DNA of 64,000 nt from Croceivirga sp. (lineage in GTDB: Bacteria; Bacteroidota; Bacteroidia; Flavobacteriales; Flavobacteriaceae), in the NCBI GenBank assembly GCA_028284665.1, contig JANQRG010000046.1:1-64000 (forward strand), read 5' to 3'. A program made the position numbers and the translations under genes. The notes beneath the pieces are model-generated. The model did not search any database, was not told the DNA's origin, and saw only the letters and a list, made by a program, of their open reading frames with translations. Below, in pieces: positions 26,288-35,848 of this stretch (its first letter is position 1; every line of letters begins with the position of its first letter).

Positions 26288-28207
26288 TCAACGAATCCGG
26301 GAAACCATAAATCGAACATTTAACAGCTCCTGGATCTCTTTTATGGTCTTAAAGGTGCGCTTCAACTTCATTTTTTCCTCTTTGTTCAACTGCTCCAGGG
26401 AAATATAGCGACCCGTATCATTGTGCTGCAACCCTTGTTTCGTCCTGAACCGCAACAACGCCTTGCTGGCATAACTGCAGGCCATGAAAATTTCAATATT
26501 GTTCGGTTCCAGTTCCGCAAGTTTTTCGAAACGTTCCCATGTATTGCTGATCCCGGTAACATTGTGCGCAAGGATCAACACCCGGGCAGCATCAATGAGG
26601 GGCATCAGGGCGCGTTGCTTCAAATCAAAAAAGTCCTTATGCTCTCCATCCTGTTCTACCAAAAACTGCCTGAAAAAGCCTGTAGGGGAGGGATTCATTA
26701 GGGCACTTTTGGCCAGATGACTTAAAAAAATAGGGTATTTTTCTACGGTGTTAAAAATATAAGTAGACAAAGCAGCCACCAGTTCCTTATCGCCGTAACT
26801 CCTGTTATAGTCAAAAAAGATCGAGGAGAGTAATACTTCGTCCGGGCCTGGGCTGGTAATCCATTTTGCCGTCATTTTTTTGTAACCGGACAAGGATTGA
26901 CACCATTTTGGATTGGAGGCCATCATGTCTGCGGGGCAATACGCATAACCGATGGTGTGCAAGCCGACGGTAATATGCCGGGATAACTCCAGGAAATACT
27001 TTTGTGTTTCCGCAAAGGAGGCCTCGGCTACGTCTTCAAATAAAAGGGCATTGTCTTGATCGGTGTGCAATAACTGTTCGCTTCGTCCCTGACTTCCCAT
27101 GGCCAACCACGCAAATTTAACCGGGGGAGGGGAGGGCATTTTTTGTAAGGCGAGATGTATGATCTGTTGGGTACACGTATCGTTCAGTTCTGAAATTATT
27201 TTGGCCGTTAAGGCCATAGGAATATTTTGTCGCAAATACCCCCTCAAAAGGTTTTGTACGCCATTTCTAATAGGCTTGATCTCTTCAAAGGTCCTGGCGC
27301 GTTTAACCGCCTTTACCATAACAGCGGGATTATTGCCAAGTGAGAGCATGATATCATGCTTGGAGAGGATACCAATGGCTTTGGTATTCAGAGTGCCGTC
27401 CTCGGTGAGTACTAAATGGCTTATGTTGCTTTTCATCATGGCCATTTGCGCTTGTGTAACCGTTAATTTGGCAGGATAGGTAATTACCGGTGAGGACATA
27501 ATGCTTTGGGCCGTCGTTGAAATAGGGAACTTACCGGTAGCAATTTTATTGCGAATATCCTTATCGGTAATGATCCCCTGGGGTAAGCCCTCTTTTTCGA
27601 TGAGCATAGCGCCAATACCTTTTTCAGACATCCGTTCTGCAATGGTTTTAATCGTGGTAGTCGTAGTACTGGCAACAATTTCCTTGGAGTATTGTACAGC
27701 CTGAAGGTCCAAAAGTCGGGCGCCGGCAGTATCGGGATGAAACCCTATGGCGTCTCCAAGGAGTTGTCCTTTGTGATTTTTGGAATAGGGATTCCGGGTA
27801 TTGGAAGCGAAACTCTCCACTAAAAAATCACTTATCCGTTGATTTTTAGTGGCAAAAGGGCGAAACTTTTCGATAGGTACGGCATATAAGATACTTTCTT
27901 CCTCGGTTTTTGCCATTAGCTTGTAGGTTTCGTTGGCCATCAGGGGGCGGAGCCCAAAAATATCGCCCTCATCACAGATATCCAGTACCAGATCATCATG
28001 GGTATTCCATAGGGCAACAGCACCCTTGTGTACTACATAAAAATGAGAATGCGGTACGTCATCCATATCAAATACGACAGCATCCTTTTCCTTGTAGACA
28101 ATGGCGATTTCTTGTGAAAATTCCGCTAGCTCGTTTTGAGGAAAATTGGAAAAAGGAGGATAATGTTGAAGGAAATCCGCAATCCGAAAAGAAATAGTAT
28201 TCCGCAT
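26288..28207 (-). CDS. cNMP-binding/CBS/DUF294 nucleotidyltransferase-like protein
   Basis: 639 residues in four parts: an N-terminal cyclic-nucleotide-binding fold (VFDMDDVPHSHFYVVHKGAVALW), a CBS pair (MSEKGIGAMLIEKEGLPQGIITDKDIRNKI; ISHLVLTEDGTLNTKAIGILSKHDIM), a DUF294 nucleotidyltransferase-like domain (WLAMGSQGRSEQLLHTDQDNALLF, with the GSxxRxExxxxxDxD pattern), and a C-terminal DUF294 substrate-binding helix bundle. It is modelled on GlnD-like enzymes and likely senses adenylate or cyclic nucleotides, possibly tuning acid uptake or Acs. Function is not established. Confidence 0.9.
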   Translation of the reverse strand: MRNTISFRIADFLQHYPPFSNFPQNELAEFSQEIAIVYKEKDAVVFDMDDVPHSHFYVVHKGAVALWNTHDDLVLDICDEGDIFGLRPLMANETYKLMAKTEEESILYAVPIEKFRPFATKNQRISDFLVESFASNTRNPYSKNHKGQLLGDAIGFHPDTAGARLLDLQAVQYSKEIVASTTTTTIKTIAERMSEKGIGAMLIEKEGLPQGIITDKDIRNKIATGKFPISTTAQSIMSSPVITYPAKLTVTQAQMAMMKSNISHLVLTEDGTLNTKAIGILSKHDIMLSLGNNPAVMVKAVKRARTFEEIKPIRNGVQNLLRGYLRQNIPMALTAKIISELNDTCTQQIIHLALQKMPSPPPVKFAWLAMGSQGRSEQLLHTDQDNALLFEDVAEASFAETQKYFLELSRHITVGLHTIGYAYCPADMMASNPKWCQSLSGYKKMTAKWITSPGPDEVLLSSIFFDYNRSYGDKELVAALSTYIFNTVEKYPIFLSHLAKSALMNPSPTGFFRQFLVEQDGEHKDFFDLKQRALMPLIDAARVLILAHNVTGISNTWERFEKLAELEPNNIEIFMACSYASKALLRFRTKQGLQHNDTGRYISLEQLNKEEKMKLKRTFKTIKEIQELLNVRFMVSRIR

Positions 28208-28389
28208 ACTCTAAATTTAGGGCAAATGCGGTTATATTCTAAAGAAAAGTAGTGAAAAGACAGTGCTATAACCTTCCGGTGATGCTTTTAAGCCACGGCC
28301 TAATATAGCCACCAGTACGGGAAAATACCATATTCCGAAAGTTGGTAACTTCCGGTTGCCACAATCAAGTTGTCCGATCCAGGATATCC

Positions 28390-28797
28390 TTAATTCAAAA
28401 TGGGCAGCATATCATGAAAGCTTTGCTTGTATTCCAACACTTTAAAAACGGCAGGAGTTTCACCAATATTCTCCAGATCGTTGATCAGGTTTTTGTTTTG
28501 ATTGTCAAAATACTCGGTATCACCCTGTTCCACTTTGATGAGCGTAATTTTCCCGTTGCCAAACCTACTCTTTAAAAAGGAATCCGACTCCGATATCCAG
28601 GAATAGTTTTTGTTGTGGCGGCAAAACGGCATCCGTTCGCCTACTTCCAATTTTAGATTCCAAAGTTTTATGGCCTTATCTTCAAACAGCAAGGTGTTCC
28701 CAAGGGCTTCTTTGAATTCCAGTGCATTAAGTTCTTCAATATATTGTTCCTCCCACTGGGAAAAGTCGTGGGCGGGATTCAGTACTAAACAGTTCAT
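28390..28797 (-). CDS. Hypothetical protein, small cytoplasmic
   Basis: A 135-residue soluble protein starting MNCLVLNPAHDFSQWEEQYIEELN. No family is firmly recognised. The middle (KLWNLKLEVGERMPFCRHNKNYSWI) and (GKITLIKVEQGDTEYFD) read like the strands of a small cupin, but metal ligands are not clear. The reading frame, acidic composition and ATG at 28797 support a real gene. It is 180 bases upstream of nothing on its strand and probably single. The 28208-28389 interval shows no gene. Confidence 0.6.
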   Translation of the reverse strand: MNCLVLNPAHDFSQWEEQYIEELNALEFKEALGNTLLFEDKAIKLWNLKLEVGERMPFCRHNKNYSWISESDSFLKSRFGNGKITLIKVEQGDTEYFDNQNKNLINDLENIGETPAVFKVLEYKQSFHDMLPILN

Positions 28798-29406
28798 TTT
28801 TTGATATTTGCGGCGGCAAAATTACGCAGTTTTTTGTAAGTAAAACCTTCAAAAACAGGGTTTAACCAAAAATTTAACTTCTGTATATTTCTGTCTCTCA
28901 AAATTGTGATAACTACAAAAAAAGAAAGCGTTTTTTATGCAAGTGGTAATGTATTTGCCAATTCCCGGAAGTAGGGTATGGGGTTGTTCATAGCATGAAT
29001 CGAAAAACAGCATCACCAAAGTGGCAAGGGCCCGTAGCTCGGAGGGACTTCACAAAACAAAAAGCCCAGGAGTAGTTATATAGATAGGGGAAATCCTCCT
29101 GGCGGGCCATCAGCAGTTGGTTGGTATACCTTTTCAGTAAAATCGTGTAGGGAACTGTATATTTTTTGCGAATAATAGTCAACGTGGTGTAACGTCCTGT
29201 AAAAACTACAAAATTTTTAAAATAGTTCATTTTATTATAATAACCTGAATATCACTTTCTTATAGTCTGAATTCGTAGTTACGGATACTTTTAATTCTTA
29301 AAATTTCCATAAAATAGTACCTTTTTATACATAGTACTGTAACAAAATGATTTTTGTGGCGTCTATCCAGTGTAATCAAATTAAAACAACATCAAAAATT
29401 AGTATA
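28798..29406. other. AT-rich gap before the mini-gene locus
   Basis: A 609-base stretch with no convincing gene. A minus-strand frame of 80 codons at 28988-29230 starts at ATG (MNYFKNFVVFTGRYTTLT), but its C-terminal half has no recognisable character and it lacks context, so I do not call it as a gene. The last 150 bases should hold the promoter of the mini-genes; the best -7-like string is GATTTTTG near 29349, a 7 of 8 match to TAnnTTTG, and no matching -33 was found. Confidence 0.4.
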
Positions 29407-29520
29407 ATGAAAGCATCACTCAACAGAACAGCAACCGAATCAAAAACAGGACAGTATTTCTCAACCCTTAGTGGCAGCAAAAGATCGCTATGGGCACAGT
29501 ACAGAAATTTTAATCGTTGA
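29407..29520 (+). CDS. Mini-gene A: 37-residue basic peptide, paralogue of mini-gene B
   Basis: Too short for ordinary gene calling. The ATG follows an A-rich leader typical of Bacteroidota; stop TGA. The peptide begins MKASLNRTATESKTG and ends SKRSLWAQYRNFNR. It matches mini-gene B at 29 of 37 residues with no gaps. Of the 37 codons, 13 differ only synonymously, and the last nine residues (WAQYRNFNR) are identical despite five or six silent changes, which is strong evidence that the peptide is translated and selected. It has no signal peptide or membrane segment, is strongly basic, and has no family I recognise. After the stop the frame stays open for another 33 codons. Confidence 0.82.
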   Translation: MKASLNRTATESKTGQYFSTLSGSKRSLWAQYRNFNR

Positions 29521-29651
29521 AATTCTGGTAGCTACGGCAAGAAAAACAATTGGGGAGGCATTTATAACAACTCGGAAAGTAATCTTCCCATCCAAAACGA
29601 AAAACAAAGCACATTTGCATAGCATTAATCAAAAAAGAAAAAAATACAATC

Positions 29652-29765
29652 ATGAAAGCAACAAGTAATCTAACAGCAACGGAATCTAGAACAGGTACAT
29701 ACTTTTCAGCCCTGAGTGGAACTAAAAGAGCACTATGGGCCCAGTATAGGAATTTTAACCGCTAG
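29652..29765 (+). CDS. Mini-gene B: 37-residue basic peptide, paralogue of mini-gene A
   Basis: Starts MKATSNLTATESRTG, ends TKRALWAQYRNFNR; ATG after an A-rich leader (AAAAAAATACAATC), stop TAG. Same length and register as mini-gene A, 131 bases downstream of its stop. Differences from A are conservative (S/T, K/R, S/A) apart from positions 5, 7 and 16. Conserved features are TATES near position 10, YFS.LSG at 17-23, KR.LW at 25-29 and the invariant C-terminus. Together with A and C it lies in a unit closed by a terminator at 29927. Function unknown; candidates include an antimicrobial or signalling peptide, a regulator of a cellular machine, or an RNA- or membrane-binding basic peptide. Confidence 0.83.
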   Translation: MKATSNLTATESRTGTYFSALSGTKRALWAQYRNFNR

Positions 29766-29787
29766 CCATAGCATAATCAATCAAAAA

Positions 29788-29901
29788 ATGAAACCCATCA
29801 TCATCAATCAATCAACAATGGATTCAAAAAAGGCTGCCCTGTTCATCAACGTAATGAGCAGCAAGCGGATCCGCTGGACAGCATCGGTCCAGTGCTTTTA
29901 A
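29788..29901 (+). CDS. Mini-gene C: 37-residue peptide, possible distant relative of A and B
   Basis: Starting at the ATG at 29788 (after AATCAATCAAAAA) the frame is exactly 37 codons plus TAA, the same length as A and B. It begins MKPIIINQST and ends SKRIRWTASVQCF. Shared with A and B are the MK start, a Thr-x-x-Ser element near position 10, an aromatic at 18-19 and S-x-KR-x-x-W (here SSKRIRW) at 24-30, one position shifted. The end after Trp is different and contains a single Cys. An ATG at 29818 would give 27 residues. It lies 22 bases after mini-gene B and 25 before the terminator stem. Homology to A and B is suggestive, not proven. Confidence 0.55.
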   Translation: MKPIIINQSTMDSKKAALFINVMSSKRIRWTASVQCF

Positions 29902-29926
29902 CAACTACCTGACATACAGGAATAAA

Positions 29927-29961
29927 GGGGGGTGTAGTAATCAGTATACATCCCTTTTTTT
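29927..29961 (+). terminator. Rho-independent terminator closing the mini-gene unit
   Basis: GGGGTGTA (29929-29936) pairs with TACATCCC (29947-29954), one G-U pair, 10-base loop, then seven T. It lies 25 bases after mini-gene C and supports transcription of A-B-C on the plus strand as one unit. Confidence 0.8.
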
Positions 29962-30084
29962 GATTCTTTCACGGCCTCCACTTTTTAGAATTTCAAAGGC
30001 AATTACTAAGACAGAGATGATGTAGCAAGGTGCACCCACCGCAACCGGGCAGTTGGAAACGCTATGGCATCGCTATGGCCGGTT

Positions 30085-30744
30085 TTATACTATTTTCAGA
30101 CTTTCAATTCGCATTTGGATTGATTCTTTTGTCATTCTGTACGATTTTGTTTTTCGCCCAACTAGCATTTTTTTGGCAAATTCTTCCATTGCTTTAATAC
30201 CGCGTTCCGAAAATTCTTTCGCCTTGTCCAATCTTCCGATATGAAGGTTTATATCTTTTAACATCATCATAAAATCGATAGGATTGTCAATATGATATTT
30301 TCCCATCAGCAGGTAATTTTTTTCATAAACCTCTTCGGCTTTGATATTCTCAAAGGGTTCTGGAAAATTCTCGAAGTCAGCATAAAATAATTTTCCAGCG
30401 GTCAGAAACGCATTTAAAATTCCCTCGACTTGTTCAATATTCTTTTCTTTTTCCTCATAGAAATTCCATGTCCCTACTGAAAGTCTTGGTCTAATCAAAC
30501 ATTCAGTAACCAATATCTTTTCAATTGAATTGTTTTTTCCATAATACATTGGAAGAAAGTCGTAGTGTATTCCTGTTTCACAATAAACGCAGCCGCCCAT
30601 CCAACTACCATACATTCCAAAAACCTTTATTAAATGGTTTTCTTCAAATTTTCGGTAATTGAAATCGCTTCCTGTCCAGCCAATTTTTTCAACTTCTGGC
30701 TTAAAGTGTTTGTTCACTAATCTTTTGAATTTAGCAGCGGTCAT
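30085..30744 (-). CDS. DUF4304-like protein
   Basis: A 219-residue soluble protein. The N-terminal half (MTAAKFKRLVNKHFKPEVEKIGWTGSDFNYRKFEENHLIKVFGMYGSW) has the DUF4304 layout: a short helix, then strands around a polar substrate-free groove. The C-terminal half is helical (LKDINLHIGRLDKAKEFSERGIKAMEEFAKKML). DUF4304 proteins are scattered in accessory regions and have no known function. It is isolated, antisense to its neighbours, and preceded by GCCTATACC ... CGTTATAA, a sequence type seen at gene-cassette-like junctions in this phylum, suggesting recent acquisition. Confidence 0.68.
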   Translation of the reverse strand: MTAAKFKRLVNKHFKPEVEKIGWTGSDFNYRKFEENHLIKVFGMYGSWMGGCVYCETGIHYDFLPMYYGKNNSIEKILVTECLIRPRLSVGTWNFYEEKEKNIEQVEGILNAFLTAGKLFYADFENFPEPFENIKAEEVYEKNYLLMGKYHIDNPIDFMMMLKDINLHIGRLDKAKEFSERGIKAMEEFAKKMLVGRKTKSYRMTKESIQMRIESLKIV

Positions 30745-31081
30745 TTAAATTGCCTATACCTTGTTTATATCGTTATAAAGCACATCCCTCTGCTTCAAAT
30801 CTAGTACAAAACCTATAAAAGGGCGATTTTTTGTTGTGAACCTCAACATCTTTAAATAAGCTTATTGCATAAAAAAAGATGGTAATTACCATCCTCCGGG
30901 TTGATTGGACGATTCCGAACTAAGTCCCGGAAAAAATTTAAGTGCGGAACAGTGAAGTACTACCAAAAACAATTCCGGATACATTTCCCATTTCACAGAT
31001 ATGATTTCCGGTTATACAGATTAGATTCTTTAAAGGAAAAATACATTCTGAATTTTGGGGAAACAATTAAAATTAGAAATC
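30745..31081. other. Intergenic stretch with a perfect palindrome
   Basis: No gene seen in 337 bases. It contains the cassette-junction-like sequence at 30752-30778 and a perfect palindrome at 30878-30893, and ends in an A-rich leader before the lipoprotein gene. A short plus-strand frame at 30901-31173 overlaps the lipoprotein start in another frame and is not supported. Confidence 0.5.
30878..30893. repeat. Perfect 16-base palindrome GATGGTAATTACCATC
   Basis: The sequence is its own reverse complement and is preceded on the plus strand by a run of A, so on the minus strand it forms a hairpin followed by T7, like a terminator. No minus-strand gene lies upstream of it, so it is either a remnant terminator or a dimeric protein's operator. 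Confidence 0.5.
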
Positions 31082-31597
31082 ATGAAAAAAACGAATCGAA
31101 ACAAAAAGAGGAGCTTGAGACCTTTTATCGGTATGTTAATAATGGTTGCTGTGTCATTTTTCGTATCCTGTGAAAAGAATGAAGAATTACCAACTGATCA
31201 GGCCATCAGTGAGAGTTCAATTATTGGTGATTATGTCAGATTAGATGTCACCATAGTTAATTCAGACCGTGGGACTCCGCAACGCCTTGAAACCCTTGAA
31301 ACTTTTTTGGGAGATGAGCTGCAATTACTGGAGGATGGTTTATTTAAAAACGCAACAGTAGAAGGGAGTTGGAGTAAAGAACGGCAAACACTTTTTCTTT
31401 ACACAAAAGAGGGCGCTTCAATGCAACTTGAGATAGAAGAAATGGATGATCAACGTTTGGAGTTGTCACATAAATATCGCTCCTATGGTAATTATTCAGA
31501 TGGAACCGTAACCTACACTTTTGTTAAAAAAGGAAGTGAAGCTGATTTTGATCACGATTTACTATCTTCTTTCAATACTTGGCTAAAGAAGCTTTAA
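31082..31597 (+). CDS. Lipoprotein of unknown function
   Basis: About 171 residues from the ATG at 31082 (an ATG-less extension to 31055 is less likely). A basic n-region (MKKTNRNKKRSLRPF) precedes a hydrophobic stretch (IGMLIMVAVSFFVSC) ending in a lipobox Cys, so it should be a lipoprotein. The mature part (SIIGDYVRLDVTIVN ... LQLLEDGLFKNATVEGSWSKERQTLFLYTKEG) has the strand pattern of a small lipocalin-like or META-like beta-barrel that measures deviation of a model, but no family is certain. It precedes a LytS-type kinase by 30 bases and may be its cell-envelope partner. Confidence 0.72.
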   Translation: MKKTNRNKKRSLRPFIGMLIMVAVSFFVSCEKNEELPTDQAISESSIIGDYVRLDVTIVNSDRGTPQRLETLETFLGDELQLLEDGLFKNATVEGSWSKERQTLFLYTKEGASMQLEIEEMDDQRLELSHKYRSYGNYSDGTVTYTFVKKGSEADFDHDLLSSFNTWLKKL

Positions 31598-31627
31598 ATA
31601 GTTTTCAAGGGAAATAGGATCCAAACG

Positions 31628-32668
31628 ATGCAAAACACAAAAAAAGTTTTAAGGCATTTAGTTATTTGGTTATGCGTACCCTTCATTGTGTCTTTCGTCG
31701 TTTGGATATTTTTCAGAAGTCTTTTCTCTATAGAAAATGAGAGCATAGGCTTTCTTGACGTGTTTTTGGATAAGGGGAATATTCTTAGCAACGTTATAAT
31801 AGTCCTTATTGGCGCATTAGGATTTTATGCTGCCAATTCTTCAATTGTACCTTATTTTCTTCAAAGGGAAAAAACGATCAAAATCGTTTTGGGTATTGGT
31901 ATGCTTCTTGTAACACCGCTCATTTTTTTATATGTGTTGGGTTTTTTCTTTGAGGAAGTCGACCAAATCTCGTTTATCATTGCATACCCCGTGCTTTTAT
32001 TTTTCTTTATTGTTGGCGCCTTATTCCGTGTTTTGGAATATAGCCGGATTAAGGATTTGGAGCGTGTACAACTAGAGCGAAAAAGAATGGAAACCCAGTT
32101 GCATCTTTTAAAAACCCAAATTAATCCACATTTCTTATTCAATACCATCAATAATATAGATGTATTGATCGAAAACGATCCCAAGGTCGCTTCCAATTAT
32201 TTAAGAAAACTTGGTGACTTGCTACGGTTTATGTTATACCGTGTCAACGAGGAGGATATGATTCTTTTAAAAGATGAGATTGAGTATTTGAAAAAATATA
32301 TTGATCTTCAAAAAATACGATCGGTAAATCCGAATTTTGTGGATTTTACGATTAAAGGCGATCCGGCTTCGATAGCCATTACACCAATGGTCTTTATCGT
32401 ATTTGTTGAAAACGCCTTTAAACACGTTGCTGGTAAAAAAGAAGATGGCGCAATTGTAATTTACATGGAAATATCGACTCACAAGGTATCTTTTAGATGT
32501 AGAAATACCACAGAGAAAAGAGCCGCTGAAAAGCCTGCCAAAGAAGGAGGAATTGGTTTAACTTCCGTTAAACGTAGATTGGATTTGATGTATAAGGATA
32601 ATTATAACTTGAATATTTTCTCAAATAGTGGCTATTACGAAGCCTTACTGGAAATTGAACTACCATAA
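31628..32668 (+). CDS. LytS/YehU-type sensor histidine kinase
   Basis: 346 residues. Four membrane segments in the first 135 residues (HLVIWLCVPFIVSFVVWIFF, NVIIVLIGALGFYAANSSIV, VLGIGMLLVTPLIFLYVLGF, FIIAYPVLLFFFIVGALF) precede the His_kinase domain with LKTQINPHFLFNTINNIDVLI (phospho-acceptor in NPHFLFN) and an HATPase domain (VFIVFVENAFKHVAGKK, GIGLTSVKRRLDLMY). The stop and the regulator start share bases (ATGA-type coupling). It is a standard kinase of LytTR systems; the stimulus is unknown, with an adjacent lipoprotein and a protease as possible partners. Confidence 0.93.
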   Translation: MQNTKKVLRHLVIWLCVPFIVSFVVWIFFRSLFSIENESIGFLDVFLDKGNILSNVIIVLIGALGFYAANSSIVPYFLQREKTIKIVLGIGMLLVTPLIFLYVLGFFFEEVDQISFIIAYPVLLFFFIVGALFRVLEYSRIKDLERVQLERKRMETQLHLLKTQINPHFLFNTINNIDVLIENDPKVASNYLRKLGDLLRFMLYRVNEEDMILLKDEIEYLKKYIDLQKIRSVNPNFVDFTIKGDPASIAITPMVFIVFVENAFKHVAGKKEDGAIVIYMEISTHKVSFRCRNTTEKRAAEKPAKEGGIGLTSVKRRLDLMYKDNYNLNIFSNSGYYEALLEIELP

Positions 32669-33360
32669 TGATTGATTGCATTGTCATTGAGGATGAGCCT
32701 TTGGCCATGAAACGAACAAAAAGCTATGTACAAAAGATTCCGTACCTTAATTTAATCGGTGAATTTAACCATAGCCTTCTTGCTCTTGCGTTCATGAAAT
32801 CAAATCAGGTAGACTTGATTTTTCTTGACATTGAAATGGATGATTTGACAGGAATCGAATTCGTAAAAGCCTTGGAAAATCCACCAAAGGTGATTATGAC
32901 CACAGCCTATGAAAATTACGCCTTACAGGGGTATGAAATGGATATTGTGGATTATTTGTTGAAACCTTATAGTTTCGAAAGGTTTCTGCAGGCTGTAGAA
33001 AAGGCCTACAACAGCCTTCAAAGCAATAGGTTTAATGATAAGGATTACGTATTTGTGAAGACAGAGTATAGGATGGAAAGGATATCCTTCGTTGACATTT
33101 TGTTTGTAGAAGGAATGGGAGATTATAGAAACATTCAGACCTCAAACAAAAAGATTTTAACCTTGCAGACCTTTGGAGAATTGGAAATGCACCTGCCAAA
33201 GGATAGATTCTGCCGGGTTCATAAATCCTATTTAGTTGCAATTGACAAAATAGAATTTGTAGAGCGGAATAGGATCAAAATTGGAGAAAAAAGAATACCC
33301 ATTGGCGAAACCTACAAGAACAATTTTCTTGAACGCATTGGATTTTCAAATAGGAAGTAA
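32668..33360 (+). CDS. LytTR-family response regulator
   Basis: 230 residues. A receiver domain (CIVIEDEPLAMKRTKSYV, phospho-acceptor in DLIFLDIEMDDLTGIEF, Lys in DYLLKPYSFERF) is joined to a LytTR DNA-binding domain (DYVFVKTEYRMERISFVDILFVEGMGDY ... FCRVHKSYLVAIDKIEFVERNRIKIGEKRIPIGETY). Its partner kinase is immediately upstream. LytTR regulators commonly control exported peptides, toxins and surface proteins, so nearby targets such as the protease at 33438 or the mini-genes at 29407 deserve testing. Confidence 0.95.
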   Translation: MIDCIVIEDEPLAMKRTKSYVQKIPYLNLIGEFNHSLLALAFMKSNQVDLIFLDIEMDDLTGIEFVKALENPPKVIMTTAYENYALQGYEMDIVDYLLKPYSFERFLQAVEKAYNSLQSNRFNDKDYVFVKTEYRMERISFVDILFVEGMGDYRNIQTSNKKILTLQTFGELEMHLPKDRFCRVHKSYLVAIDKIEFVERNRIKIGEKRIPIGETYKNNFLERIGFSNRK

Positions 33361-33397
33361 ATGTTTGTCGCAACCCTAAAAAACCGGATTACTTTAC

Positions 33398-33423
33398 CTA
33401 ACAACGTGTATGACCCGTTGCGG
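33398..33423 (+). repeat. Cassette-junction-like inverted repeat
   Basis: CTAACAACG ... CGTTGCGG contains CAACG and CGTTG as an inverted pair over a nine-base loop, and has the RYYYAAC/GTTRRRY-like outline of integron attC sites. Such sequences occur around accessory genes in Bacteroidota. It lies 14 bases before the protease ATG. Only one copy of this form is in the window. Confidence 0.3.
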
Positions 33424-33437
33424 AAATTGAACAAACT

Positions 33438-34769
33438 ATGAAATGGATTAAGATCTTACCCGCTTTAGTTTTACTATCGCTTTCATCATGCAATGAAAAA
33501 CTAAAAGAAAGAAATGACGATCAAAAGACACGAATAGAAAAATGGATTGAGGATATAGACTATTTCGAACACCAATATCTTACGGAATCCAGTACTTTTT
33601 CTAAAGATTCAATCGCATCTTGTAAGCAACTATTAGCGGATTTAAAGCCAGCATTAGACTCCTTAACGGACAACCAAATAATCCTACAACTATCCAGGTG
33701 CGTTGCTATGGCCAATAATGGACATACCACTATACATCTTAGCCGGATGGATAAAGTACCTTTACGTTTCTATTGGTTTGAAGACGGGCTATATGTAATA
33801 AAAACGGACAGTTCTTTACAAAGCTATCTTGGGGCCAAAGTTTTAAAGATTAATGCTATTGAAATTGAAGATGTCCAAAAAAAGCTTAACCCTTATTTAT
33901 CCGGTATAGAACGTTGGAAAAAGTATACAGCATCCAACTATTTATCCAGTCCGGAAATTCTGAACGGAATTGGATTAACGGAAAGGGATTCGATGAACAT
34001 GACCTTGTTAATGGCAAAAGATACCATAAATGTTGTTTTTGGAACAAAAGAAATGGGTAATCATAAATACGAATACGAGACCTGGTCCGACCTGTATCCT
34101 GATTCCACCGAAACAGGTTGGACGCACCTGCTAAACACGAGCGTGAATCAACCCCTATATCTGAAGCACATGAATGATGGTGTATTTCACACTTTTCTTG
34201 ATTCAGTTAAGATTGCCTATTTCAGTATTAATGCGCTATGGTATAAATGTTCAGATTTTGAAGATAAGGTTGAAAAGTTCATTGATAAATTAAAGACCAA
34301 GACAGCTTATGATGTCGTTTTTGATTTACGGTACTATACAGGTGGGGACTATACGATTCCCCTGGATTTAGCAACTAAACCGCCCAAAATAATTGATGAT
34401 GACAGAAGGATTTATTTGATAACCAGCAGAATGACGTTTTCCGCTGGTCTGGTTACCGCAGCTCGTATTAAATATTTTGGTAAGGATAAGGTTGTGGTCG
34501 TTGGAGAAGAAGTGGGAGACAACATGAAGTTTTGGGCTGAAGGCGATTATTACAATTTACCAAACTCTAAAATTGAGATACAAGATTCGAAGTTTGAACA
34601 TGACTGGCAGGACGACAAGTTTACGCTTGGCAAAACATATTGGATTAACGCCTTTTATGGTGTTCCGGCTGGGGATTTGAATGTAGATAAAAGGATACAA
34701 TTAAACTTTGCGCAATTCATCAACGGGAAAGACCCAGTTTTAGACTGGATAATCAATGAGGTAGAATGA
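33438..34769 (+). CDS. S41-type (C-terminal processing) protease-like lipoprotein
   Basis: 443 residues. A signal sequence (MKWIKILPALVLLSLSSC) ends in a lipobox Cys. The distal half has the S41 core: VVFDLRYYTGGDY, ITSRMTFSAGLVTAAR with the nucleophile Ser in FSAGL, and VVVVGEEVGDNMKFWAEG. The region around residues 115-150 (DGLYVIKTDSSLQSYLGAKVLKINAIEIEDV) resembles a PDZ-like loop. Family members cleave peptides or C-termini, usually on the periplasmic side. The order lipoprotein, LytS, LytTR, protease suggests a regulated envelope module, though the cassette-like junction before it points to separate acquisition. Confidence 0.8.
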   Translation: MKWIKILPALVLLSLSSCNEKLKERNDDQKTRIEKWIEDIDYFEHQYLTESSTFSKDSIASCKQLLADLKPALDSLTDNQIILQLSRCVAMANNGHTTIHLSRMDKVPLRFYWFEDGLYVIKTDSSLQSYLGAKVLKINAIEIEDVQKKLNPYLSGIERWKKYTASNYLSSPEILNGIGLTERDSMNMTLLMAKDTINVVFGTKEMGNHKYEYETWSDLYPDSTETGWTHLLNTSVNQPLYLKHMNDGVFHTFLDSVKIAYFSINALWYKCSDFEDKVEKFIDKLKTKTAYDVVFDLRYYTGGDYTIPLDLATKPPKIIDDDRRIYLITSRMTFSAGLVTAARIKYFGKDKVVVVGEEVGDNMKFWAEGDYYNLPNSKIEIQDSKFEHDWQDDKFTLGKTYWINAFYGVPAGDLNVDKRIQLNFAQFINGKDPVLDWIINEVE

Positions 34770-34824
34770 GGAGTTTGTTAAGTTCTGAGCGGCAAATTTC
34801 ATAACTTGCGAAGCCGAGTAAGCG

Positions 34825-34886
34825 CTATTCATTAAACTTTAATAGCATTTTCAAACACCCGCTAGCGCTCGTCTGTGACGGGTGCC
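34825..34886 (+). repeat. RAYT left-flank repeat unit and hairpin
   Basis: 34825-34856 (starting CTATTCATTAAAC, ending CATTTTCAAAC) is repeated at 35545-35576 with 28 of 32 bases identical. Next, CACCCG (34857-34862) pairs with CGGGTG (34879-34884) around GCTAGCGCTCGT (34861-34872), which reappears inverted at 35527-35538. These bracket the RAYT gene as in REP/BIME-type arrangements. Confidence 0.7.
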
Positions 34887-34941
34887 CTACCAGAAAACAT
34901 GGTTCTGAGTAAAAGTCATTGTTTTGTATTTTTAGGTCTGC

Positions 34942-35498
34942 ATGAGCAGAAAATACAAATTCAGGAATCCGACGGCCGCTTACTTTGTAAGCTTTGCCAC
35001 TGTATATTGGTTGGATGTTTTTGTACGACAGGAATACTTTCAGGTTTTGGCTACCAGTGTTGATTATTGTCGAAAGGAAAAAGGGTTGGAACTATATGCC
35101 TACTGTTTTATGCCAAGCCACGTTCATTTCATATTTCGGGATTCCAATGAGAATCCAACAGCTTTGTTAAGGGATTTCAAAAAACACACTGCAAAGAAGA
35201 TGATCCGTGCCATTGAGGAAAATCCACAAGAGAGTAGAAAAGAATGGTTGCTTTGGATGTTTGAACGTGCCGGAAAAAAGAAGGCAACATATCAAAATAT
35301 CAATTTTGGCAACACCATAACAAACCCATTGAGCTTTGGAGCACATCTGTGATTAAACAAAAACTTGATTATGTTCACAACAATCCGGTTGAATCTGGTT
35401 TTGTCATGGAATCAACGGAATGGAAATATAGTAGTGCACGGAATTTTGCTGGTGATCATACTATTCTGGAAATAGACGAGATTGGTTTTCTAGCATAA
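34942..35498 (+). mobile_element. REP-associated tyrosine transposase (RAYT, IS200/Y1-like) split by a -1 frameshift
   Basis: Frame one (34942-35352) encodes MSRKYKFRNPTAAYFVSF and the HUH motif in YCFMPSHVHFIF, continuing to FERAGKK. The family continuation KYQFWQHHNKPIELWS and LDYVHNNPVESGF, with the catalytic Tyr, lies in the -1 frame and ends at TAA 35498. The switch falls on A AAA AAG (35274-35280) in the correct phase for -1 ribosomal slippage, giving AGKK-EGNISKYQFW and a 185-residue product of normal RAYT length. Restoring A7 instead of A6 would also join the frames, so a one-base deletion or sequencing error is the alternative. RAYTs are single-copy Y1-type transposases that mobilise nearby REP sequences. 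Matching repeats flank the gene. Confidence 0.82.
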
Positions 35499-35526
35499 AT
35501 TGTTGTTACTATAGCACTCGTTGCAA

Positions 35527-35576
35527 ACGAGCGCTAGCAGGGGGCTACTCATTACACTTTAACGGCATTTTCAAAC
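35527..35576 (+). repeat. RAYT right-flank repeat unit
   Basis: ACGAGCGCTAGC at 35527-35538 is the exact inverse of GCTAGCGCTCGT at 34861-34872. It is preceded by CACTCGTTGCAAACGAG, a small hairpin (CTCGTT/AACGAG). 35545-35576 is the second copy of the 32-base direct repeat (4 mismatches). The repeats mark the limits of the RAYT-associated unit. Confidence 0.7.
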
Positions 35577-35594
35577 CCCTATAGCTACTATAAT

Positions 35595-35726
35595 AGTGAC
35601 GTACGGACAGATGCACGCGCATATACCACTTTGAGGATTGCGGTTATCGGACTTTTTGTTGGGATGATCTTGGTAGCAGTTGATCTGCCACTGAATAACC
35701 TGAACAATGTCCTGGCATACCAATAA
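35595..35726 (+). pseudogene. C-terminal remnant of a membrane protein gene
   Basis: A forward frame reads SDVRTDARAYTTLRIAVIG then LFVGMILVAVDLPLNNLN and ends NNVLAYQ at TAA 35726, with a clear membrane segment. The frame is open back through the RAYT right repeat, and no start codon or N-terminal part is present. It looks like the 3' end of a gene whose 5' part was lost when the RAYT unit arrived. Parent family not recognised. Confidence 0.4.
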
Positions 35727-35749
35727 ACTATTGCAGATAATTCAAACAA

Positions 35750-35773
35750 AAAAGCCGTCGTTTGACGGCTTTT
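35750..35773. terminator. Bidirectional terminator between gene remnant and tRNA-Met
   Basis: AAAAGCCGTC pairs with GACGGCTTTT over a GTTT loop. Flanking A and T runs allow it to work in both directions. On the minus strand it starts two bases after the tRNA-Met 3' end. Confidence 0.8.
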
Positions 35774-35774
35774 G

Positions 35775-35848
35775 TAGCGAGAGGGAGACTTGAACTCCCG
35801 ACCTCAGGGTTATGAATCCTGCGCTCTAACCACCTGAGCTACCTCGCC
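35775..35848 (-). tRNA. tRNA-Met (CAU), elongator type
   Basis: The minus strand folds as a cloverleaf: acceptor GGCGAGG/TCTCGCT, D stem GCTC/GAGC, anticodon loop TTCATAA, T arm GGGAG-TTCAAGT-CTCCC, discriminator A. CCA is not encoded. The Watson-Crick closed 1-72 end (G-U) and D-loop AGGTGGTTA are elongator-like; tRNA-Ile2, which also has a CAT gene anticodon, cannot be strictly excluded. A partial second copy lies upstream on the same strand. Confidence 0.93.

Follow-up and report, generated by a model that had tools for sequence, protein, structure and literature searches.

Introduction

The enterobacterial small RNAs MicA, RybB, and MicL depend on sigma-E and limit the synthesis of outer-membrane proteins, and the Flavobacteriaceae rely little on the enterobacterial small RNA machinery. 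Promoters in which a TGTAAC element is followed, about 16 bases further on, by a CGTC -10 box have the form of ECF sigma promoters. In F. psychrophilum SM6, ECF promoters contain a -10 CGT box, and one of these promoters is located ahead of an ECF/anti-sigma pair (PMC9723704, in its accessible part). In P. gingivalis, two operons (PG_0214-0216 and PG_0985-0987) show the gene order sigma/anti-sigma/DUF4252, and their genes are up in a peroxide-stressed mutant (accessible part of PMC10101095). A different type of upstream site is found at LytTR-controlled genes (HdrRM and BrsRM of S. mutans), where 9-bp direct repeats 12 bp apart precede the promoter; according to the accessible text of that report (PMC6193735), LytTR repeats are usually spaced by 12 bp.

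Here we describe a cassette of three mini-genes (A, B, and C) in a 64,000-nucleotide stretch of Croceivirga sp. DNA, referred to below as the window. The cassette and its relatives resembled ECF regulons of the sigma/anti-sigma/DUF4252 type in having an autoregulatory-looking promoter and matching target sites, and they shared the -10 CGT box of the F. psychrophilum promoters and the gene order of the P. gingivalis loci. In contrast to those regulons, the most conserved target that we found was an array of genes for 24 to 48 residues with an extra upstream element; the accessible part of the F. psychrophilum report makes no mention of mini-gene arrays. As with MicA, RybB, and MicL, a sigma factor appeared to have very small conserved outputs, but those outputs are RNAs, whereas the mini-genes showed coding selection. 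The 9-bp repeats 12 bp apart that precede HdrRM and BrsRM also occurred here; however, no export or leader features were seen, and the LytTR-type site looked like an optional second input. One conserved promoter, present in 113/299 Flavobacteriaceae genomes sampled, predicts a class of micro-proteins that is absent from the family libraries searched, and the promoter/array system offers a direct handle on very small bacterial proteins and on the ECF stress response in Bacteroidota.

Results

Mini-genes A (29407..29520), B (29652..29765), and C (29788..29901) were located on the + strand of the window, with 131 bases between A and B and 22 bases between B and C. Each encoded 37 residues; A and B were repeat-type units, and C was a terminal-type unit. 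An earlier note on this DNA had reported three 37-codon frames on one strand with this spacing, and their coordinates were verified. The note had also described A and B as gap-free paralogues with 29 identical residues, 13 codons that differed only synonymously, and an invariant WAQYRNFNR despite five or six silent changes. Our recount agreed (29/37 residues identical, 13 synonymous-only codons, and 8 residue-changing codons), and the number of silent codon changes in WAQYRNFNR was 5.

The note had proposed that the peptides were conserved as proteins, and dN/dS values (Nei-Gojobori) pointed the same way. The value was 0.070 for A versus B, 0.03 to 0.19 for A versus five orthologous or paralogous units of relatives, 0.06 to 0.10 for B versus four units (one pair was saturated), and 0.13 to 0.33 for C versus five units. 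When the 37-codon units were pooled (4377 pairs), dN/dS was 0.32 in frame, and the two shifted frames gave 1.31 and 0.96. The sequence-based refuting conditions of the note did not apply: homologues with a conserved KR-x-x-W and C-terminus were found, and dN/dS was well below 1. Judged by these substitution patterns, A, B, and C are protein-coding genes under coding-level selection.

The placement of C as a third relative also stood. Models built without any C matched it at E 2.3e-5 and 1.8e-9 in a test that scored two sequences as one, and reversed C gave 0.2. A C-like unit was kept behind A/B-type units in genomes G001, G003, G008, and G400, and a further strong relative was found in the window's own genome (C8:65112). 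As noted previously, the peptides were basic and had no visible signal sequence; the median net charge of the mini-proteins was +6. AlphaFold predicted two helices (residues 9-21 and 25-35) with moderate confidence (pLDDT 73, pTM 0.35).

The cassette was closed by a predicted intrinsic terminator (29924..29962, + strand). The stem, formed by 29924-29936 and 29947-29959 with the U run inside the 3' arm, had a folding energy of -15 kcal/mol (z -3.4), and 0/200 shuffles were equally stable, which confirmed the stem of the shared terminator placed after C in the earlier note. Among the three window stretches that were folded, the terminator alone was stable. The mini-gene leaders were 57% A over the last 20 bases, compared to 40% in a set of 512 neighbour genes; the starts of these genes were taken as the longest ATG frames and are surely wrong in some cases. 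An A was found at -12 in 92% of the leaders and at -3 in 80%. In Flavobacterium johnsoniae, an A in the latter position promotes initiation (PMC6847099, in its accessible part).

In the genomes sampled, the mini-genes are widespread within one family, the Flavobacteriaceae. An HMM search (E 0.01) identified the 37-aa family in 70/397 Flavobacteriaceae genomes and in 4/11 genomes of the window's genus; the carriers included Maribacter, Ulvibacterium, Croceivirga, Arenibacter, Muriicola, Pricia, Zeaxanthinibacter, and Saonia (65 loci). When 60 relatives were searched via tblastn, four genomes (G001, G003, G008, and G028) had strong tandem matches, and the matches in G035 and G036 were weaker; the tally of 13/60 at E 1 takes in chance-level matches. 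The order sample yielded 5/296 matches, all in Flavobacteriaceae. The phylum sample yielded 4/296, of which three were in Flavobacteriaceae and one, a weak match outside the family (G785, E 7.7e-4), had an internal stop and was taken as chance.

In all, 178 units were located in 79 regions, which contained one unit (24 regions), two (21), three (25), four (8), or five (1); thus, 54/79 regions had two to four units. A frequent layout was one to three repeat-type units of the A and B kind followed by one divergent terminal unit of the C kind. The alignment of 54 representative units omitted nine divergent ones and gained one relative from the window's own genome. In G008, two cassettes were present in a single genome about 2.7 kb apart (L111, G008:C13:86000-104000), and locus L259 (G285:C12:141700-146300) carried the 24-aa unit MRTTIFNNSKRVRWSAHRNYAIKS, a shortened form of the 37-aa type, in four identical tandem copies.

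The mini-proteins matched no known family above the cut-offs of Pfam and NCBIfam, as the earlier note had supposed; the best sub-threshold E values were 0.096 (DUF6968) and 0.15. Searches of PHROGs and PDB with 18 members gave weak matches only. A search by terms and sequence strings, in which subscription journals were thinly covered, found no published description of the mini-genes. The system was absent from the family libraries and literature searched, in keeping with the note's view of it as undescribed.

Two regulatory features were additional to those in the earlier note, and the first was an ECF-type promoter ahead of A (29313-29365). It consisted of an upstream element, AATAGTACC-TTTTTATACA-TAGTAC, which includes an AGTAC element (29313..29337, + strand), a putative -35 box, TGTAACA, of the ECF-sigma type (29338..29344, + strand), and a putative -10 box, CGTCTA (29360..29365, + strand), 15 bases 3' of the -35 box. 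The consensus upstream of first units was TAAAA.AGTACCTTTTTATACATAGTAC-TGTAACA-N15-CGTCTA or near. A similar upstream element preceded most 37-aa arrays with an ECF site, and a related one preceded arrays of 28-aa units (see below). Promoter scores of at least 11/13 were obtained in 57/79 regions, corresponding to 59/98 upstream stretches, compared to 18/1960 shuffled stretches. A good ECF site was absent from 22/79 array regions, and 15/79 had neither this promoter type nor the LytTR type described below.

The strict pattern AGTACTGTAACA-N15/16-CGTCT was found in 113 of the 299 family genomes (131 listed sites), with 0 matches in the reversed control; because the pattern misses variants, such genome counts are lower bounds. 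In a phylum sample, 7/395 genomes had the pattern, and all seven were Flavobacteriaceae. Looser patterns were less specific. In three genomes, the shorter TGTAACA-N15/16-CGTCT had 4, 3, and 3 sites, and the reversed control matched once in each genome, which indicated that some shorter-pattern sites were due to chance. The long pattern with 3 mismatches had 5 sites in the window's own genome versus 7 control matches. A two-mismatch site (L216) lay ahead of a 40-aa mini-ORF with NWKNYRRH, and this relative is possibly a chance find because the control matches exceeded the sites. The other exact sites in the window's own genome preceded genes for an exported CarboxypepD_reg protein, a secreted 110-aa protein, and an exported 450-aa protein. 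The gene for the secreted 110-aa protein lay near one that resembled Hsp20 by eye.

A candidate for the sigma factor came from G065, where a short-pattern site was located ahead of an ECF sigma gene (Pfam Sigma70_r2/r4), followed by a gene in the anti-sigma position that matched nothing in Pfam and then by a DUF4252 gene. The corresponding gene in the window's genome was at G000:C3:29301-29807. Orthologues were present in 35/37 picked genomes: 25/25 with arrays or promoter and 10/12 picked as negative, with the promoter status checked for all but two. Since the sigma gene was also present in 10/12 negative picks, its presence does not discriminate. The promoter of the sigma gene was read in 30 of the 35 orthologue-bearing genomes. 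TGTAACA-N15-CGTC was found 67 to 82 bases 5' of the sigma gene at 30/30 loci, 29 with an exact TGTAACA and one with AGTAACA, and a shuffled stretch equalled it in at most 2/200. The array and sigma-gene promoters agreed in -35 box, -10 box, and spacing, as members of one ECF regulon do. The 25 bases displayed ahead of the sigma gene lacked the AGTAC element. Because the same boxes and spacing occur at its own gene, the sigma factor looks autoregulated, with the arrays as an optional output. Other ECF sigma factors may share these boxes. The ECF genes near 4 arrays were considered as the cognate sigma gene and rejected; by eye, they were unlike one another and also unlike the sigma gene chosen here.

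The promoter led to mini-proteins beyond the 37-aa type. Only 29 of the 113 promoter-positive genomes had a 37-aa HMM match, and 84 did not. The downstream arrays often contained one to four 28-aa copies (consensus MRTLNNNQLT.....SKS..WN.KRRYR) followed by a 42-45-aa unit, many of which ended in W.G.KRYAH, and variants of 24, 29, 30, 41, 43, and 48 residues were also seen. In addition, a 39-aa unit, RPKIYF.IGFGWNTDR.YD, was found before or between 37-aa units (L064, L063, L069/L315, L072, L078, L083, L087, and others), and the one member tested had no Pfam or NCBIfam match. The three 37-codon genes of the earlier note were real, but the family was much bigger than the note had it, and 37 residues was merely one size. 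At L304, three 28-aa units were accompanied by a unit that resembled the 37-aa terminal type by eye.

The element common to the size types was W-x3-[RK]-x-[YFH]. A-led mini-ORFs with this element were located within 750 bases downstream of 157/164 distinct promoter sites, compared to 1/164 on the reverse strand and 2/1794 random windows; the 164 were the sites with 600 bases downstream, and part of them had been chosen because they contained 37-aa units. For sites known through the promoter search alone, 78/84 led into motif-bearing mini-ORFs. This downstream reading covered part of the 131 strict-pattern sites. In hhalign comparisons of four types, the core W aligned on W in 6/6 pairs, with E values of 7e-6 (28/39 aa), 1.8e-5 (28/44), 3.7e-4 (37/44), 0.003 (37/28), 0.16 (37/39), and 0.2 (44/39) and uneven probabilities (84 to 0.3%). 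The types probably constitute a superfamily or share a common docking element.

Of the seven exceptions, two (L105 and L245) had mini-ORFs in which the exact element was missing, four (L239 twice, L275, and L276) led into secreted proteins, and one (L254) led into a protein that was CarboxypepD_reg-like by eye. At L305, which had 568 bases downstream and was outside the 164, the promoter was also located ahead of a secreted protein. The secreted proteins at L239, L275, L276, and L305 were about 130 to 190 aa with an EIEE-type stretch, and two partial sequences tested had no Pfam match. Secreted proteins of about 110 aa followed the sigma promoter or lay behind 28-aa units at L319, L252, and L229; none had a Pfam family above the cut-off.

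Discussion

We consider that A, B, and C probably belong to a cassette of basic cytoplasmic effectors of 24 to 48 residues that would be the output of an autoregulated ECF sigma factor and would dock via W...R.Y. The regulatory part of this proposal appears well supported by the promoter sequences. An anti-sigma factor would release the ECF sigma factor, and the array would be switched on. Because of the other promoter targets, the trigger is probably envelope or oxidative stress. The dose of mini-proteins would rise with tandem copy number, and in a minority of arrays, B included, a LytTR regulator would provide a second input. More tentatively, the mini-proteins may remain intracellular and use W...R.Y to dock on a single target common to them all. 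This target would most likely be RNA or the ribosome, or else a membrane-associated protein, and envelope synthesis might be retuned during stress.

A common neighbour gene was considered as a partner of the arrays and rejected; when up to 8 neighbours per region were clustered, the largest cluster covered 16/79 regions. Ten neighbour queries, one of which was a mini-protein, included a methyltransferase, DUF4251, an EF-G-like protein, PCMT, AraC/TPR, S15, and an M19 peptidase, and two were familyless. The recurrent neighbours on the opposite strand were an exported methyltransferase-fold protein (16/79), PCMT (12/79), and an EF-G-like GTPase (12/79), the last being upstream and on the opposite strand in 10/12 regions. 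The EF-G-like neighbour may hint at the ribosome, and it is a hint rather than proof because many regions share one gene order. Loci with EF-G-like, PCMT, or methyltransferase-fold neighbours included L097, L099, L100, L105, L107, L110, L136, L137, and others, many of them with one gene order.

A bolder version of the effector proposal, which we find doubtful, is that the arrays are a protein counterpart of the sigma-E small RNAs. A core ECF sigma factor would then control a fast-evolving battery of mini-proteins of 24 to 48 residues that have only the W-x3-[RK]-x-[YFH] docking element in common and display it on different scaffolds; jointly, these mini-proteins would throttle the synthesis of envelope proteins at the ribosome or mRNA during stress.

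Two alternatives to cytoplasmic effectors fare best, and we regard both as unlikely. The arrays might be regulatory RNAs or leader peptides that control a downstream gene such as exbD, the peptides themselves not being effectors. Tandem short ORFs with conserved C-termini would suit such a role, and an ExbD-type ORF was located within 1.3 kb downstream in 29/87 promoter-found sites. An ExbD/TolR-type gene followed the array at L224, L225, L234, L242, L261, L262, L303, L306, and others; inspection of ten such loci by eye revealed no ExbB gene. Moreover, in 25/79 of the 37-aa regions the last unit was followed within 300 bases by the start of a co-directional ORF of at least 60 aa, so not every array stands alone. 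The remaining 54/79 regions had no such close gene, however, and in the window the terminator follows the cassette and the next + strand gene candidate is >1 kb beyond it. Purifying selection acted on the coding frame and not on the shifted frames, the A-B spacer was no more structured than shuffled sequence (z -0.14), and an Rfam scan of the window had no match at the cassette. These observations argue against such a role.

The second of these alternatives places the mini-proteins at the membrane surface, where a C-terminal basic/aromatic helix might stabilise the inner membrane under stress with no nucleic-acid target. The predicted helix 25-35 bears W29, Y32, and F35 along with basic residues, and the envelope is suggested both by the sigma targets and by exbD. 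On the other hand, the confidence of the structure is low, and by inspection the 28-aa form, which ends in WN.KRRYR, offers little hydrophobic surface.

The second regulatory feature, a LytTR-type direct repeat before B, bears on a third alternative. The repeat, ACAATTGGG-N12-ACAACTCGG (29546..29575, + strand), has LytTR-type operator geometry and was the sole site in the 64-kb window with a score of at least 15/18. A -7-box-like sequence for B, GCACATTTGCAT (29609..29620, + strand), starts 33 bases after the repeat and is an approximate match to the TAnnTTTG box given in the accessible part of PMC9723704. Similar inter-unit spacers of about 130 bases contained ACAAYTSRG-N12-ACAAYTSGG and a -7-like box. 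Scores of at least 16/18 were obtained with N12 in 17/98 stretches, with N13 in one, and with no further spacing between 8 and 16, compared to 2/4900 shuffles and 0/2566 random windows; the consensus was derived from the tested spacers, which makes this test partly circular. Repeats of 9 bp at a distance of 12 bp were located upstream of the promoter for B but not for A. Since A has an ECF-type promoter and B its own LytTR-type one, a single transcript is not required.

These repeats, their usual LytTR spacing, and the LytS/LytTR pair in the window would suit LytTR-controlled peptide bacteriocins or cell-cell signals, as in com/blp/agr-type regulons. The pair comprises a LytS-type histidine kinase (PF06580) and a LytTR response regulator (PF00072, PF04397) at 31628..33360 (+ strand), and it may possibly regulate the 29546-29575 site. 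LytTR genes were near 4/19 regions with a site (score of at least 15) versus 3/60 without (Fisher p 0.053). However, the pair is not a conserved neighbour, 45/57 ECF-promoter regions had no LytTR-type site, and inspection by eye revealed neither a signal or double-glycine leader nor an exporter or immunity gene beside the cassette. We find such bacteriocins or signals very unlikely. In a check for RiPP genes, no modification enzyme or exporter was recognised beside the window cassette; elsewhere, methyltransferase-fold and PCMT genes recurred on the opposite strand.

Small size, tandem copies, and flanks that vary among G000, G003, G008, and G400 might suggest tandemly multiplied toxins from type I toxin-antitoxin systems or from other defence/selfish modules, but this idea is barely tenable. 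By inspection, the mini-proteins are basic and not membrane-spanning; A to C had no PADLOC match (searched with A to C and four window genes); and the PHROGs matches of 18 members were weak (best E 0.055). Viral contigs, phages, and plasmids contained no match to the 37-aa type, and phages and plasmids contained none to a 28-aa unit. A phage or plasmid origin was rejected because these searches were empty.

By blastn, the cassette alone (about 29210-29966) was common to the window and G003, G008, and G400, and G001 added the left flank (26337-28936). The window segment 30000-35770 contained a DUF4304 gene, a lipoprotein-like gene, the LytS/LytTR pair, and an S41-like protease. The earlier note had pointed to the LytS/LytTR pair and S41 protease downstream; the pair is present, but blastn and tRNA positions indicated that S41, DUF4304, and LytS/LytTR are not conserved neighbours. 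A tRNA-Met gene (35774..35848, - strand) at the far end of this segment adjoins the cassette in G003, where 228 bases separate the two, compared to 2.7 kb in G400 and 5.9 kb in the window. These differences suggest that the block between the cassette and the tRNA was probably inserted later. Insertion linked to a tRNA was rejected as a general rule, since any tRNA was found in 7/79 regions and within 1 kb in 2. A small ORF in 30000-35770 resembled a REP-associated transposase by eye. In G001, a 38-base match to tRNA-Met was located about 0.2 kb from the cassette, where ARAGORN called no tRNA, and about 7.3 kb (L112, 2594-9891) separated the common left flank from the cassette, compared to about 0.3 kb in the window.
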